A DNA stretch of 64,000 bases. Source: Dyella ginsengisoli LA-4. GTDB taxonomy: Bacteria > Pseudomonadota > Gammaproteobacteria > Xanthomonadales > Rhodanobacteraceae. Each line of letters starts with the position of its first letter. The stretch's first letter is position 1. A program made the translations under genes and the position numbers. Below, one piece after another: positions 57,784 to 63,006 of this stretch. The notes beneath the pieces were generated by a model. That model was not told where the DNA came from, made no database searches, and saw only the letters and a program-made list of their open reading frames with translations. The stretch is from the NCBI RefSeq assembly GCF_000334915.1, contig NZ_AMSF01000056.1, positions 1 to 64,000 of the forward strand, read 5' to 3'.

Positions 57784-57815
57784 GACCGCCGCCTTCGGGC
57801 GGCGGTCCCGTTTTT
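57784..57815 (+). terminator. Intrinsic terminator of the glycine-zipper gene
   Basis: GACCGCCGCC, loop TTCG, GGCGGCGGTC, CCGTTTTT. It isolates the arginine leader region downstream. Confidence 0.92.
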
Positions 57816-57847: not shown

Positions 57848-57876
57848 TTGCACGGCAGCGGAATTGCCGCCATGAT
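57848..57876 (+). promoter_or_regulatory. Candidate promoter of the argF' leader transcript
   Basis: TTGCAC (57848-57853), 17-base spacer, CATGAT (57871-57876). Both hexamers are imperfect. Transcription would start near 57883, leaving a 5' end of about 19 bases before the leader ATG at 57902. Confidence 0.4.
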
Positions 57877-57901
57877 TCGGTCTCCGCTTCCCGAGTCCTC
57901 C

Positions 57902-58006
57902 ATGTCCACAGCCGTCTATACCGCCAACGTCCTCACCAGCGCCCGCATGGCTGCTGGCATGACGTCGCGTGCGCGCCGACCGCTGGGCGAACATCCGGCC
58001 GGGTAG
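57902..58006 (+). CDS. Putative arginine-rich leader peptide of the argF' operon
   Basis: 34 residues beginning MSTAVYTANVLTSARM and ending EHPAG, TAG at 58004-58006. Arginine codons are clustered at residues 23, 25 and 26 (SRARRP; CGT, CGC, CGA at 57968, 57974 and 57977), with another at residue 15. CGA is normally rare in high-GC genomes. The stop overlaps the last base of the antiterminator arm 57997-58004. There is no good ribosome site, so translation is unproven; an in-frame ATG at 57872 overlaps the proposed -10. I read this as the sensing peptide of an attenuator, on arrangement alone. Confidence 0.5.
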   Translation: MSTAVYTANVLTSARMAAGMTSRARRPLGEHPAG

Positions 58007-58069
58007 GCTGTCGCGCGCTGTTGTCCACGAGCACCGACTGAAAAACCCGGCCTTCGCGCCGGGTTTTTT
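57997..58069 (+). promoter_or_regulatory. Candidate antiterminator/terminator switch (arginine attenuator) before argF'
   Basis: Terminator: AAAAACCCGGC (58041-58051), loop CTTCGC, GCCGGGTTTTT (58058-58068). Antiterminator: GGCCGGGT (57997-58004) is fully complementary to ACCCGGCC (58045-58052), the 5' arm of the terminator, so the two folds exclude each other. A ribosome halted at the Arg codons would leave 57997-58004 free (readthrough); one that reaches the stop would cover it (termination). argF' starts 57 bases later. Confidence 0.65.
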
Positions 58070-58125
58070 CGTTTCCACTCCACGGTTTCCAGCTTTTCCA
58101 CCCCTCGACACAGGATCCCGAACGC

Positions 58126-59133
58126 ATGGCACTTCGACACTTCCTGACCACCCAGGACTACAGCCGCGCCGAGATCGACGCGCTGCTGGAGCAGGCGGCC
58201 GCGTTCAAGCGCTCGCCGCGCGGGCAGCAGCTGGCCGGCAAGTCGGTGGCGCTGCTGTTCTTCAATCCCTCGATGCGCACCCGCACCAGCTTCGAGCTGG
58301 GTGCATTCCACCTGGGCGGCCACGCCATCGTGCTCGCGCCGGGCAAGGACGCGTGGCCGATCGAGTTCGAGGTCGGCAGCGTGATGGACGGCGATACCGA
58401 GGAGCACATCGCCGAAGTGGCGCGCGTGCTCAGCCGCTATGTGGACCTGATCGCGGTGCGCGCCTTTCCGAAGTTCCAGGACTGGCAGGTGGACCGCGAG
58501 GACAAGGTCATCAAGGCCTTCGCCCAGTACGCCACGGTGCCGGTGATCAACATGGAGACGATCACCCATCCCTGCCAGGAACTGGCACACGCGCTGGCCA
58601 TGCGCGAGCACCTGGGCGACCTCACGAAGAAGAAATACGTGCTGACCTGGACCTACCACCCCAAGCCGCTGAACACCGCGGTGGCCAACTCGGCATTGCT
58701 GATCGCCACCAAGATGGGCATGGACGTGACCCTGCTGTGTCCCACGCCCGACTACGTGCTGGACGAGCGCTACATGCAGGCCGGCCAGGAGAACGCGAAG
58801 GCCAATGGCGGCTCGCTGAAGGTCAGCCACGACATCGAGGAGGCCTATTCCGGCGCGCACGTGGTGTACGCCAAGAGCTGGGGCGCGCTGCCGTACTTCG
58901 GCCGCTGGGAGCAGGAAAAGCCGATCCGCGAGGCGAACAAGCACTTCATCGTCGACGAGGCGAAGATGGCGCTGACCGACCACGGCCTGTTCAGCCACTG
59001 CCTGCCGCTGCGCCGCAACGTCAAGGCCACCGACGCGGTGATGGACGCGCCGTACTGCATCGCCATCGACGAAGCCGAGAACCGCCTGCACGTGCAGAAG
59101 GCGGTGATGGCGTCGCTGATCGGGCAGGGTTGA
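58126..59133 (+). CDS. argF': N-acetylornithine carbamoyltransferase (AOTCase)
   Basis: 335 residues. Transcarbamylase with carbamoyl-phosphate motif SMRTRTS (49-55), HPCQELAHALA and HCLPLRRNVKATDAVMD. The substrate-deciding segment MDGDTEEHIAEV has Glu92, as in Xanthomonas AOTCase, and the whole chain follows that enzyme closely; classical ornithine carbamoyltransferases differ here. It makes N-acetyl-L-citrulline from N-acetylornithine and carbamoyl phosphate in the acetylated arginine route. First structural gene after the putative attenuator. Confidence 0.95.
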   Translation: MALRHFLTTQDYSRAEIDALLEQAAAFKRSPRGQQLAGKSVALLFFNPSMRTRTSFELGAFHLGGHAIVLAPGKDAWPIEFEVGSVMDGDTEEHIAEVARVLSRYVDLIAVRAFPKFQDWQVDREDKVIKAFAQYATVPVINMETITHPCQELAHALAMREHLGDLTKKKYVLTWTYHPKPLNTAVANSALLIATKMGMDVTLLCPTPDYVLDERYMQAGQENAKANGGSLKVSHDIEEAYSGAHVVYAKSWGALPYFGRWEQEKPIREANKHFIVDEAKMALTDHGLFSHCLPLRRNVKATDAVMDAPYCIAIDEAENRLHVQKAVMASLIGQG

Positions 59134-59143
59134 GCCGTCACCC

Positions 59144-59767
59144 ATGTACCTCCCCGGACATTTTTCCGAGACCCGTGACCAGGCCCTGCATGGGCTGGTC
59201 GATGCGCATCCGTTCGCCACCGTGCTGGTGCCGGATGCATCGGGTGTCGCCGTGAACCATCTGCCACTGCTGCGGCAGGGCGATGTGCTGCGCGGCCATG
59301 TCGCCGGCGGCAACGAGCTGGCCACAATGGACGGCGCCGCCGTGGTGGCGGTGTTCCACGGCCCGCAGGGCTACGTGAGCCCGAACTGGTACCCGAGCAA
59401 GCACGAGACCGGGCGCGAGGTGCCGACCTGGAACTACGCCGTGGCGCACGTGCACGGGCGCCTGCGCGTAGTCCGCGACGCCGGCTGGCTGCGCGATCTG
59501 CTGGACGCCTTGACCGACCGCTTCGAGGCGACCGAGCCGGCGCCCTGGAAGGTCGCCGATGCCCCGGCCGACCACGTGCAGAAGCTGCTCGGTGCCATCG
59601 CCGGCATCGAGATCGCCATCGAGCGCATCGAGGGCAAGTTCAAGCTCAGCCAGAACCACCCGGCGGCGAACCGTGCCGGCGTGGTCGACGGCCTGACCCG
59701 TCGCGCGCAGGGCGACGACCTGGCGCTGGCCGCGCTGATGCAGGCGCAGGAGGCAGCACGCGCATGA
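59144..59767 (+). CDS. PaiB-family FMN-binding protein
   Basis: 207 residues, ten bases after argF'. FMN-binding split-barrel of the PaiB type: MYLPGHFSETRDQALHGLVDAHPFATV, NHLPLL, GPQGYVSPNWYPSK, VPTWNYAVAHVHG and KLSQNHPAANRAGVV. Bacillus PaiB influences protease genes, hence the name 'negative transcriptional regulator', but no DNA-binding domain is present and the real activity is probably redox or flavin-related. Its stop overlaps the next start (ATGA). Confidence 0.87.
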   Translation: MYLPGHFSETRDQALHGLVDAHPFATVLVPDASGVAVNHLPLLRQGDVLRGHVAGGNELATMDGAAVVAVFHGPQGYVSPNWYPSKHETGREVPTWNYAVAHVHGRLRVVRDAGWLRDLLDALTDRFEATEPAPWKVADAPADHVQKLLGAIAGIEIAIERIEGKFKLSQNHPAANRAGVVDGLTRRAQGDDLALAALMQAQEAARA

Positions 59768-60268: not shown

Positions 60269-61462
60269 ATGAGCCAGAAAGACATCGTCCTCGCCTTCTC
60301 CGGCGGCCTCGACACCAGCTTCTGCGTCCCGTACCTGAAAGAGCGCGGCTGGGCCGTGCACACCGTGTTCGCCGACACCGGCGGCGTGGATGCCGAGGAG
60401 CGCGCCTACATCGAGGCGCGCGCGAAAGAGCTCGGCGTCGCCAGCCACGTCACCGTGGACGGCGGCCCGGCGATCTGGAACGGCTTCGTGAAGCCGTTCG
60501 TGTGGGCCGGCGAGGGCTACCAGGGGCAGTACCCGCTGCTGGTGTCCGACCGCTACCTGATCGTCGATGCGGCGATCGCGCGTGCGAAGGAGCTGGGCAC
60601 CAAGGCGATCGCCCACGGCTGCACCGGCATGGGCAACGACCAGGTGCGTTTCGACCTGGCGGTGAAGGCGCTGGGCGACTACCAGATCGTGGCGCCGATC
60701 CGCGAGATCCAGAAGGAGCACACCCAGACCCGCGCCTACGAGCAGGCCTACCTGGAAGAGCGCGGCTTCGAAGTGCGAGCGAAGCAGAAGAGCTACACCA
60801 TCAACGAGAACCTGCTCGGCGTGACCCTGTCCGGCGGCGAGATCGACCACTGGAAGGCGCCGGGCGAGGGCGCCCGCGGCTGGTGCAAGCCGCGCGCGGA
60901 ATGGCCGTCCGACAAGCTGCAGGTCACGCTCGGCTTCGAGAAGGGCGAGGCGGTGTCGCTCGACGGCGAGAAGCTGCCGGGCGCGGCGATCCTGGCGAAG
61001 CTCAACGCGCTGTTCGCGCCGTACGGCGTGGGCCGCGGCATGTATACCGGCGACACCACCATCGGCCTGAAGGGCCGCATCGTGTACGAAGCGCCGGGGC
61101 TGGTCTCGCTGCTGGCCGCGCACCGCGCACTGGAGGAGGCGGTGCTGACCAAGCAGCAGAACCGCTTCAAGCCGGAGGTGGCGCGCAAGTGGGTCGAGGT
61201 GGTCTACGAAGGCTTCTTCCACGACCCGGTGAAGACCGACCTGGAAGCCTTCCTCGCCTCCAGCCAGGCCTGCGTCAACGGCGAGGTGGTGCTGGAAACG
61301 TCCGGCGCCCAGGTCACCGCGGTCGAGGTGCGTTCGCCGCACATCCTCAACGCCAAGGGGGCTATCTACGCACAGTCCGCCGACTGGGGCGTGGAAGAGG
61401 CCGAAGGCTTCATCAAGCTGTTCGGCATGAGCTCGACGCTGTGGGCCGAGGTCAACCGCTGA
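60269..61462 (+). CDS. argG: Argininosuccinate synthase
   Basis: 397 residues. ATP-pyrophosphatase loop [11 protein letters not shown], then [15 protein letters not shown] and the [17 protein letters not shown] segment. It joins citrulline and aspartate. In the Xanthomonas-type pathway the deacetylase ArgE first frees citrulline from acetylcitrulline. 31 bases after the OsmC gene; GNAT and argE genes follow. Confidence 0.96.
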
Positions 61463-61465
61463 CAC

Positions 61466-61909
61466 ATGGACGGCACGCTGCGCATCGATACGTCACGGGA
61501 GGCGCTGGATCGGGACATGATCCACGCCTTCCTCGCCGAGCAGGCCTACTGGAGCCGCGGCATCCCGCGCGAGACGGTGGAGCGTGCCATCGAAGGCTCG
61601 CTGTGCTTCGGCGGCTACCTCGACGGGCACCAGGTCGCGTTCGCGCGGGTGGTCACTGATGGCGCCACCTTCGGCTACCTCGCCGACGTGTTCGTGCTGC
61701 CGGAGCATCGCGGGCGAGGCCATGCCAAGACCCTGATGGCGGCGGTGATGGCGCATCCGCAATTGCAGGGTCTGCGCCGCTTCAGCCTGGCCACCCTTGA
61801 TGCGCACGCGCTGTATGCCGGTTTCGGCTTCACCGCGCCGAGTCGGCCGCAGAACCTGATGGAAAAGCTCGATCCGGACATCTACACCCGACAGCCAGGC
61901 AGGCCATGA
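61466..61909 (+). CDS. GNAT-family acetyltransferase within the arg operon
   Basis: 147 residues, three bases after argG and overlapping argE by ATGA. Acetyl-CoA loop VFVLPEHRGRGHAKTLMAAVM and end-piece HALYAGFGFTAPSRPQNLMEKL. The N-terminus (SREALDRDMIHAFLAEQAYWSRG) is typical of a common uncharacterised bacterial GNAT group. N-acetylglutamate synthesis is probably covered by the fused argB product, so this one is unlikely to be the needed synthase. Confidence 0.83.
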   Translation: MDGTLRIDTSREALDRDMIHAFLAEQAYWSRGIPRETVERAIEGSLCFGGYLDGHQVAFARVVTDGATFGYLADVFVLPEHRGRGHAKTLMAAVMAHPQLQGLRRFSLATLDAHALYAGFGFTAPSRPQNLMEKLDPDIYTRQPGRP

Positions 61910-63006
61910 CACCTCTTCTGCAATACACCCTGGAACACCTCAAGGCCCTGGTCGGCTTCGACACGCGCAATCCGCCGCGCGCCATCGGTACCGGCGGCAT
62001 CTTCGACTACATCCGCGCGCAGTTGCCCGGGTTCGACGTCACCGTCACCGACTACGGTGCCGGTGCGGTTACGCTGCATGCGGTGCGTGGTGCGCCGAAG
62101 CGGCTGTTCAACGTGCACCTGGACACCGTGCCCGACTCGCCGCACTGGAGCGCCGACCCACACCGGCTGCGCATCACCGGTGATCGCGCGATCGGCCTGG
62201 GCGCCTGCGACATCAAGGGCGCCGCGGCGGCGCTGCTCGCCGTGGCGAACGTCACCGACGGCCCGATGGCGATGCTGTTCTCCACCGACGAGGAGGCCAA
62301 CGATGCGCGCTGCATCGCCGGCTTCCTGGGAACGAAGCACGACTACGACGCGATCATCGTGGCCGAGCCGACCAAGGGCGAAGCTGTGCTGGCGCACCGC
62401 GGCATCCACTCGGTGCTGATGCGCTTTGCCGGCCATGCCGGCCACGCCTCGGGCGAGCAGAAGCCCAGCGACAGCGCGCTGCATCAGGCGGTGCGCTGGG
62501 GCGATGCGGCGCTGGATTTCGCCGCGGCGCAGTCGCATGAACGTTTCGGCGGGTTGACCGGCCTGCGCTTCAACATCGGCCGCATCGACGGCGGCATCAA
62601 GGCCAACATGATCGCGCCGACCACCGAGGTGCGCTTCGGCTTCCGTCCGCTGCCGACGATGGATCCGGACCGCATGCTGGAGACCCTGCGCACCCTGGTC
62701 GAGCCGGCGCCCGCCGAGTTCACCGAGACGTTCCGCGGCGACTCGCTGCCGGCCGGCGACACCGCCACCGCCGAGGCTCGCCGGCTGGCCGCGCGCGACC
62801 TCGCCGACGAACTGGATATCCCGGTCGGCAACGCGGTGGACTTCTGGACCGAGGCGGCGCTGTTCTCCGCCGCGGGCTATACCGCGTTCGTCTATGGCCC
62901 CGGCGACATCGCCCAGGCGCACACCGCCGACGAGTGGGTGGCGCTCGACCAGCTGCAGCATTACGCCGCCACCATCCACGGGCTGGTCGCACGCGGCCAC
63001 GCGTGA
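61906..63006 (+). CDS. argE: N-acetylcitrulline/N-acetylornithine deacetylase
   Basis: 366 residues from an ATG overlapping the GNAT stop. M20 metallopeptidase: [58 protein letters not shown] and the dimerisation domain [15 protein letters not shown]. In Xanthomonas the orthologue acts mainly on N-acetyl-L-citrulline, which fits the AOTCase upstream. Confidence 0.92.

Follow-up and report, generated by a model that had tools for sequence, protein, structure and literature searches.

Leader-peptide attenuators control the trp, his, leu, ilv, thr and phe operons of Gammaproteobacteria, and in fungi translation is regulated by the arginine attenuator peptide, whose nascent chain causes arrest when arginine is high. 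Here we describe a leader from bacterial arginine biosynthesis, the segment preceding argF' (N-acetylornithine carbamoyltransferase) in a stretch of 64,000 nucleotides from Dyella ginsengisoli LA-4 (contig NZ_AMSF01000056.1, hereafter the window), which on comparison with related loci is very probably a ribosome-mediated transcription attenuator sensing the charging of the tRNA-Arg that reads CGU, CGC and CGA. In Salmonella, ribosome pausing at consecutive arginine codons of the speF leader orf34 under low arginine raises expression, according to the available part of PMC6386406. The original prediction, made from the sequence of the window, had known of no described arginine case in Proteobacteria; with speF orf34 this needs narrowing, but for biosynthesis it stands as far as open-access matches reach, since among those listed we found no description of leader-peptide attenuation of bacterial arginine biosynthesis. 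The available text of PMC2965389 contains neither the word arginine nor argF and describes no attenuation of arginine biosynthesis; leader attenuation of this pathway is likewise not described in the accessible portions of PMC8632094, PMC5343134 and PMC4997734, the last of which reports pyrimidine attenuation of carA, with a leader peptide in Pseudomonas aeruginosa.

On the + strand of the window, a predicted promoter is followed by a 34-codon leader open reading frame (ORF), a terminator and argF' (58126..59133; NF003384.0, E 1.9e-182, above cut-off), the first gene under the proposed control, with argG and argE' downstream. The leader ORF (57902..58006, +) encodes MSTAVYTANVLTSARMAAGMTSRARRPLGEHPAG and has arginine at positions 15, 23, 25 and 26, the last three lying in the regulatory run CGT GCG CGC CGA (Arg23, Ala24, Arg25, Arg26; 57968..57979, +). 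Close to its end stands the antiterminator 5' arm GGCCGGGT (57997..58004, +), the last T of which is the first base of the TAG stop codon (58004-58006). This arm complements ACCCGGCC at 58045-58052, which is at the same time the 5' arm of an intrinsic terminator (58041..58069, +) recognised by sequence, folding and alignment. The last arginine codon ends at 57979 and 18 bases then separate it from 57997. On re-reading the sequence, the coordinates first proposed for the ORF, the arginine codons, the eight-base complement and the terminator were all correct, and they confirm the geometry of 18 bases to the antiterminator arm with the stop codon lying on it. Predicted folding energies are -16.8 kcal/mol for the terminator (z -3.7) and -26.8 kcal/mol for the antiterminator (57997-58055; z -2.6); when the whole leader is folded together the terminator forms and not the antiterminator (z -1.27, with 21 of 200 shuffles as stable). 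A simple terminator scan did not list the 58041-58069 hairpin, which folding and conservation show. By itself the eight-base complement is only moderately unlikely (dinucleotide-shuffled linkers reach it in 36 of 5000 cases), and it is far beyond chance because it is conserved across loci.

Conservation was assessed in 80 argF' loci chosen by protein, the window locus and the 30 loci of the order that best match the Rfam model of sRNA-Xoo5 (RF02242). One locus, L045, with only 66 nt upstream, was excluded from leader counts, leaving 110: 80 from Rhodanobacteraceae (f1, the window included), a label taken from the titles of sequence records, a few of which give just a phylum or an improbable taxon, and 30 from a second family (f2), assumed from the Rfam family name to be Xanthomonadaceae. 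Each of the 80 usable protein-chosen Rhodanobacteraceae loci has the leader ORF, the terminator and the complementary antiterminator arm; all three are also present in the 30 loci fetched by the RNA model (L083-L112), where, given how these were picked, the presence of a leader is no evidence by itself. Because those 30 had been fetched by RNA, we read a further 20 f2 loci drawn from argF' protein matches, none of them among the genomes listed for the Xoo5-model search. All 20 have the leader: 18 by pattern, with an MTSRARR core and six or more Watson-Crick pairs in the antiterminator, one by reading (L227, with MASRARR and an intact switch) and one by model match only (G601, where the match to R1, a covariance model built in this analysis, runs from about 450 to about 310 nt before argF', just beyond the stretch taken). 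The core pattern occurs in 5 of 369 genomes of the class, all from f1 and f2 of the order, an exact pattern of this kind being one that would miss diverged leaders; its backward control matched once (G023), and a search of plasmids with the leader gave no match.

The core peptide Met-Thr-Ser-Arg-Ala-Arg-Arg-Pro is found in 110 of 110 loci, with arginine always at leader positions 23, 25 and 26 and with TCG, CGA and CCG codons fixed. Over the nine codons of GMTSRARRP we counted 125 third-position differences and one first-position difference from the family consensus, using a core-locating pattern (as also for promoter reading, distances and stop positions) that already demands TCG, CGA and CCG; the seven codons directly after the core vary at all three positions. 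Variation confined in this way to third positions indicates that the translated peptide is under purifying selection. The distance from core to stop is 21 nt in 105 of the 110 loci.

The switch is conserved with the peptide. In every one of the 110 loci the end of the ORF holds a segment that complements the terminator 5' arm over 6-10 bases, beginning 12-17 nt past the end of the core (the Pro codon) and with the stop codon on or beside it; terminator and antiterminator also occur together in all 18 patterned loci of the protein-chosen f2 sample. After removal of near-identical rows, alignment A1 keeps 49 of 110 sequences and A2 keeps 40. Across the 49 non-redundant rows 97.6% of antiterminator cells are paired and 16 cells are changed on both sides, neither value being reached in 500 shuffles, and sliding the antiterminator partner lowers pairing to at most 55.1%. 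Of the 49 rows, 33 have C-G at columns 8 and 64 and 15 have U-A, a change matched by the pair that column 64 makes within the terminator. The two main families diverge in the stretch that lies between the antiterminator arms. The stop of L107 and L110 comes three codons earlier (12 nt from the core) and the antiterminator stays at 14 nt, and L238, from the protein-chosen f2 sample, behaves like L107; because the antiterminator stays despite the earlier stop, it is the RNA element and not the end of the peptide that is kept in these loci. The other three loci with an unusual core-to-stop distance have an antiterminator that moves with the stop.

Codon choice within the arginine cluster is restricted. 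For the counts we used a core pattern that leaves the serine codon free and allows CGN or AGN for arginine. The 437 cluster codons (330 from the 110 loci and 107 from 26 loci of deeper families with motifs picked by eye) are without exception CGU, CGC or CGA, and none is CGG, AGG or AGA, which make up 259 of the 2022 arginine codons of the argF' genes themselves, although counts from related loci such as these are not independent. CGA accounts for 144 of the 437 compared with 27 of the 2022, and occupies Arg26 in 110 of 110 loci. In the 18 patterned f2 loci, 0 of 54 cluster codons are CGG, AGG or AGA and the last arginine is CGA in all 18; elsewhere L188 and L190 have CGT where others have CGA, and one f2 locus of the protein-chosen sample has a TCT serine codon instead of TCG. 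CGU, CGC and CGA are read by a tRNA-Arg with inosine in its anticodon. Since the clusters hold only these three codons, a single tRNA-Arg isoacceptor is suggested as the sensed species, and the slow CGA codon would be the most sensitive step.

Deeper in the order we read 29 loci of families f3-f11, the argF' matches of 30 genomes picked by family and not at random. The leader is usually present in these but its peptide changes, the motif being TSRARR in f3 and f4, ALRRRRR in two of three f5 loci, NPRRRRV in f7, NTRRLRRP in one f8 locus, VVVRRRRP in two of three f9 loci and VVRRRPRPR in f11. A strict test, demanding a terminator, at least six Watson-Crick antiterminator pairs and a well-placed arginine cluster, picked out 16 of the 29 loci against 6 of 480 shuffles; a relaxed version was less sharp (20/29 against 26/500), and an arginine-rich ORF preceded a terminator in 25 of the 29 real upstream regions against 101 of 500 shuffles. 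Three of the loci are considered below; some others fell short of the strict test through a weak terminator, a mismatch or a G-U pair. The two f9 loci with VVVRRRRP have an antiterminator, GCTCTTTGG (identified by eye), that pairs with CCAAAGAGC in the loop and stem of the terminator, a different sequence that still fits. Because the peptides differ while the arginine run and the switch mostly remain, it is the latter two that are kept across the order. At an E threshold of 0.001, R1 matches 289 of 398 order genomes, its weakest matches including false ones; none of the 20 negatives listed belongs to f1 or f2, a further 89 negatives standing outside those 20. Weaker second matches in G061, G720 and G748 proved on reading to be gene ends with terminators.

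Five tested defining features of leader-peptide attenuators are present at this locus: a conserved short coding ORF between the predicted promoter and the first gene, a cluster of codons for the end product, an intrinsic terminator before the first gene (by sequence and folding), a mutually exclusive antiterminator with covariation support, and a geometry in which a stalled ribosome frees the antiterminator arm and a terminating ribosome covers it, taking ribosome footprint sizes from general knowledge. Conservation of the arginine codons and of the antiterminator pairing in relatives, on which the original prediction had staked itself, is borne out, the pairing with compensatory change. Anatomy, conservation, coding signature, codon bias and compensatory change all speak for an arginine attenuator, an interpretation resting on the conserved ORF, its arginine codons, the terminator, the antiterminator and the matched substitutions between them. 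That ArgR was not found, and that the homologous RNA is expressed in Xanthomonas oryzae, also count in its favour. In the mechanism we propose, transcription would start shortly ahead of the leader ORF, which a ribosome would begin to translate at once. Where charged Arg-tRNA is scarce, the ribosome would stop at codons 23-26 and leave 57997-58004 free to pair with the terminator 5' arm, allowing RNA polymerase to read into argF', argG and argE'. Where arginine is plentiful, the ribosome would reach the stop codon and, because this lies on the antiterminator arm, the terminator would form and transcription would end. The start site in this genome, co-transcription of the genes, the arginine response, stalling and termination are what such a leader would be expected to show.

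The predicted promoter, read from the sequence, consists of TTGCAC (57848-57853), a 17-base spacer and CATGAT (57871-57876), together 57848..57876 on the + strand, and would place the transcription start at about 57882-57884. Transcription of argF' probably starts anew, since a strong terminator (57784-57807) closes the gene upstream. By eye, TTGCA(C/T)-17-CATGAT/CATCAT recurs near the same place in most Rhodanobacteraceae loci with a long enough upstream stretch, and differs in L053, L075 and the Luteibacter loci; a simple consensus promoter scan of the window listed no promoter here. The spacer itself (57854-57870, GGCAGCGGAATTGCCGC) also appears well conserved in many Rhodanobacteraceae, often as GGCAGCGAAAATCCCGT or GGCAGCGAAATTnnCGCC, which is more than a spacer needs and may reflect a protein site. 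A -10-like box lies 6-9 nt before the ATG in Xanthomonadaceae and about 25 nt before it in most Rhodanobacteraceae, again by eye. The 124-position Rfam consensus of Xoo5 begins two bases before the AUG, and the leader ORF would therefore be almost leaderless in Xanthomonadaceae, which fits the position of the -10-like box. Many Rhodanobacteraceae have a weak CCGGAA-like stretch near the leader ATG; the ribosome site of the window stays weak because CCCGAG stands there instead. The lack of a clear ribosome site, conceded from the outset as the weak point, accordingly stands for the window, and is partly explained by the near-leaderless mRNA of Xanthomonadaceae and by the CCGGAA-like stretch.

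The leader has a counterpart among catalogued small RNAs (sRNAs). Against the RF02242 model the window scores 32 bits, below the gathering cut-off of 50, which 28 of 200 order genomes pass, and all 30 of the best Xoo5-model loci, like the window, have the match directly upstream of argF' on the same strand. The 49 of 200 order genomes that match the model include false ones, since the matches in G136 (C73) and G041 (C19) have no argF' within the 2.1-2.5 kb fetched. No Rfam family reached its gathering score in the stretches searched; hits to rnk_pseudo, STnc450 and RsmY were well below their cut-offs, and each overlaps at least part of the terminator. In Xanthomonas oryzae, sRNA-Xoo5 sits between PXO_00354 and PXO_00353, the latter encoding N-acetylornithine carbamoyltransferase, and was detected by cloning, 5' RACE and Northern blot, measuring 124 nt from the RACE 5' end to the cloned 3' end and giving bands of about 130 and 100 nt, of which only the shorter was seen in later growth (PMC3039613, available part). 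Placed through the Rfam model, its 5' end would lie about 2 nt before the leader AUG, and the transcript start after 57997 that had been named as fatal to the mechanism is thereby contradicted for the Xanthomonas homologue, as far as the accessible text of that study goes. According to table 4 of the same partly available paper, deletion of another RNA, sRNA-Xoo1, which adjoins thiC and is said to have been annotated earlier as a riboswitch, lowered the ArgF' and ArgG protein spots; sRNA-Xoo1 may likewise be a leader RNA.

Several points weigh against an attenuator. The Xoo5 bands are shorter than the approximately 156 nt estimated to the end of the terminator (from L083 positions), the published clone ends before the terminator hairpin, and the sRNA deletions, that of Xoo5 included, are stated to have left expression of the flanking genes unaffected and growth unchanged in both rich and minimal medium (PMC3039613, in the part available). 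The leader has no strong Shine-Dalgarno site. Two-sided changes fall at only two antiterminator pairs, and two such pairs together with six further pair types were reached by 117 of 500 shuffles; because only these two pairs change on both sides, the covariation may be concentrated in few events. Three of the 29 deeper loci (L195, L208 and L209) have no recognisable leader ORF and switch in 320 nt upstream. The core peptide is, in some families, more conserved than codon sensing alone requires. Finally, folding does not support a protector helix between 57941-57951 and 57997-58004, the local fold being no better than shuffles (z +1.46).

This protector arm, GCCCGCATGGC (57941..57951, +), is a weak candidate within the leader ORF that can pair with the antiterminator arm; 99.3% of cells pair, without two-sided change, and a 1:2 protector helix was set aside as a proven element on account of this and of the folding. 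A further observation concerns 57965-57979 (TCGCGTGCGCGCCGA), where the near-fixed TCG and CGA codons could pair to enclose the regulatory codons in a small hairpin (TCGCG with CG-CGA), whose loop or bulge holds the bases of this stretch that vary in alignment A2. As an explanation of the fixed codons, this TCGCG/CGNCGA hairpin was rejected, its columns being invariant and hence without covariation, with the CGT of L188 and L190 and the TCT of one f2 locus also standing against it.

The conservation of the core could be taken to mean that nascent GMTSRARRP, while in the exit tunnel, itself responds to free arginine or some other metabolite and that codon supply is secondary. Nascent-chain sensing has precedents in the fungal arginine attenuator peptide and in bacterial TnaC and SpeFL, and an arrest peptide would account for amino acids that are almost invariant while third positions vary, for the retention of Met, Thr, Ser and Ala, which codon sensing need not keep, and for the 21 nt between core and stop in 105 of 110 loci. 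Such a peptide is nevertheless an improbable explanation of the leader, for in f5 and f7-f11 the peptides are unrelated and only arginine runs remain, the antiterminator holds at 14 nt in L107 and L110 (stop at 12 nt), as it does in L238, and a stall at these codons in high arginine would switch the operon on, which is the wrong sign. Families f1 and f2 show peptide conservation independent of codons, f3 and f4 a looser form of it, and f5 and f7-f11 none. It is possible, if doubtful, that in Rhodanobacteraceae and Xanthomonadaceae, and more loosely in two neighbouring families, GMTSRARRP arrest is layered on an older codon attenuator that does the work of ArgR in most of the order; the nascent peptide and the fixed CGA-CCG step would then slow the ribosome and sharpen or re-tune the codon attenuator.

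It is very improbable that the RNA is a trans-acting sRNA with its own targets whose place before argF' is incidental: in the 30 top Xoo5-model loci argF' always follows closely on the same strand, and the RNA holds a coding ORF under purifying selection. In favour of such an sRNA stand its Rfam name, its detection in X. oryzae as a separate RNA species by cloning, 5' RACE and Northern blot, and a deletion reported without effect on flanking genes (available part of PMC3039613). Since a terminated leader would itself resemble an sRNA, a trans role could be additional. Shuffled sequences show how far an ordinary terminator behind a chance ORF in GC-rich DNA might go, 36 of 5000 reaching the eight-base complement alone and 101 of 500 an arginine-rich ORF before a terminator, against 25 of 29 real regions; conservation in protein-chosen loci, the third-position pattern and the matched substitutions contradict this account, to which we give almost no credence. 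Two exclusive hairpins would equally suit an arginine-binding RNA (a riboswitch) or an undescribed protein acting on them, and the conserved promoter spacer could be cited in its favour, but with no Rfam family at gathering score in the stretches searched, and with an inter-arm part that differs between the two main families while the coding frame is kept, we consider it extremely unlikely.

The attenuator reading bears on how arginine synthesis is controlled in this order. Of 151 order genomes, 8, all of family f12, gave a match to the ArgR N-terminal domain and 143 did not (controls 9/14); the C-terminal domain was found in 1 of 40 relatives, again in f12 (controls 8/14), and neither domain was found in the window's genome. 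A close argF' is missing from the f12 genome that was tested, and the four f12 genomes listed have no R1 match. L195 (G005, f6) and L208 and L209 (f10) are cases of an argF' with no recognisable leader in this order mostly without ArgR found. If the argF' leader is an attenuator, arginine biosynthesis joins the amino-acid pathways run by leader-peptide attenuation, and an answer is offered to how the pathway is controlled where ArgR was not found (143/151 genomes). It would also give an Rfam sRNA family a cis-acting function, implying that sRNA catalogues can contain attenuated leaders, and would point to one tRNA isoacceptor as the species sensed.

Beyond argF', the window carries argG (argininosuccinate synthase; 60269..61462, +; NF003385.0, above cut-off) and argE' (acetylornithine deacetylase; 61906..63006, +; NF006439.0, above cut-off), both in the same direction as argF'. 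A 207-codon ORF without an NCBIfam match (59144-59767) sits between argF' and an OsmC-like gene.

Among known systems, the trp, his, leu, ilv, thr and phe attenuators share with the argF' leader an ORF rich in end-product codons, an intrinsic terminator, an exclusive antiterminator and a stop codon over the antiterminator. The argF' leader differs from them in being specific to arginine, in appearing near-leaderless in Xanthomonadaceae, in its scattered codons (R-A-R-R) in f1-f4 and in that a protector hairpin is not established. The fungal arginine attenuator peptide is likewise an arginine-related upstream ORF before an arginine gene, but acts on translation, via nascent-peptide arrest in high arginine. 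Xoo5 of Xanthomonadaceae occupies the same position upstream of argF' and has the same ORF core and antiterminator; it differs in having been treated as an sRNA gene by Rfam and by PMC3039613, which in its available part draws no ORF, attenuator or link to argF'. The speF orf34 leader belongs to a polyamine gene and works through Rho termination, masking of a ribosome site and RNase G in place of an intrinsic terminator, and its consecutive arginine codons are AGG and CGG; as described in the accessible portion of PMC6386406, what it has in common with the argF' leader is a leader ORF with arginine codons at which ribosomes pause in low arginine, as we propose for argF'.
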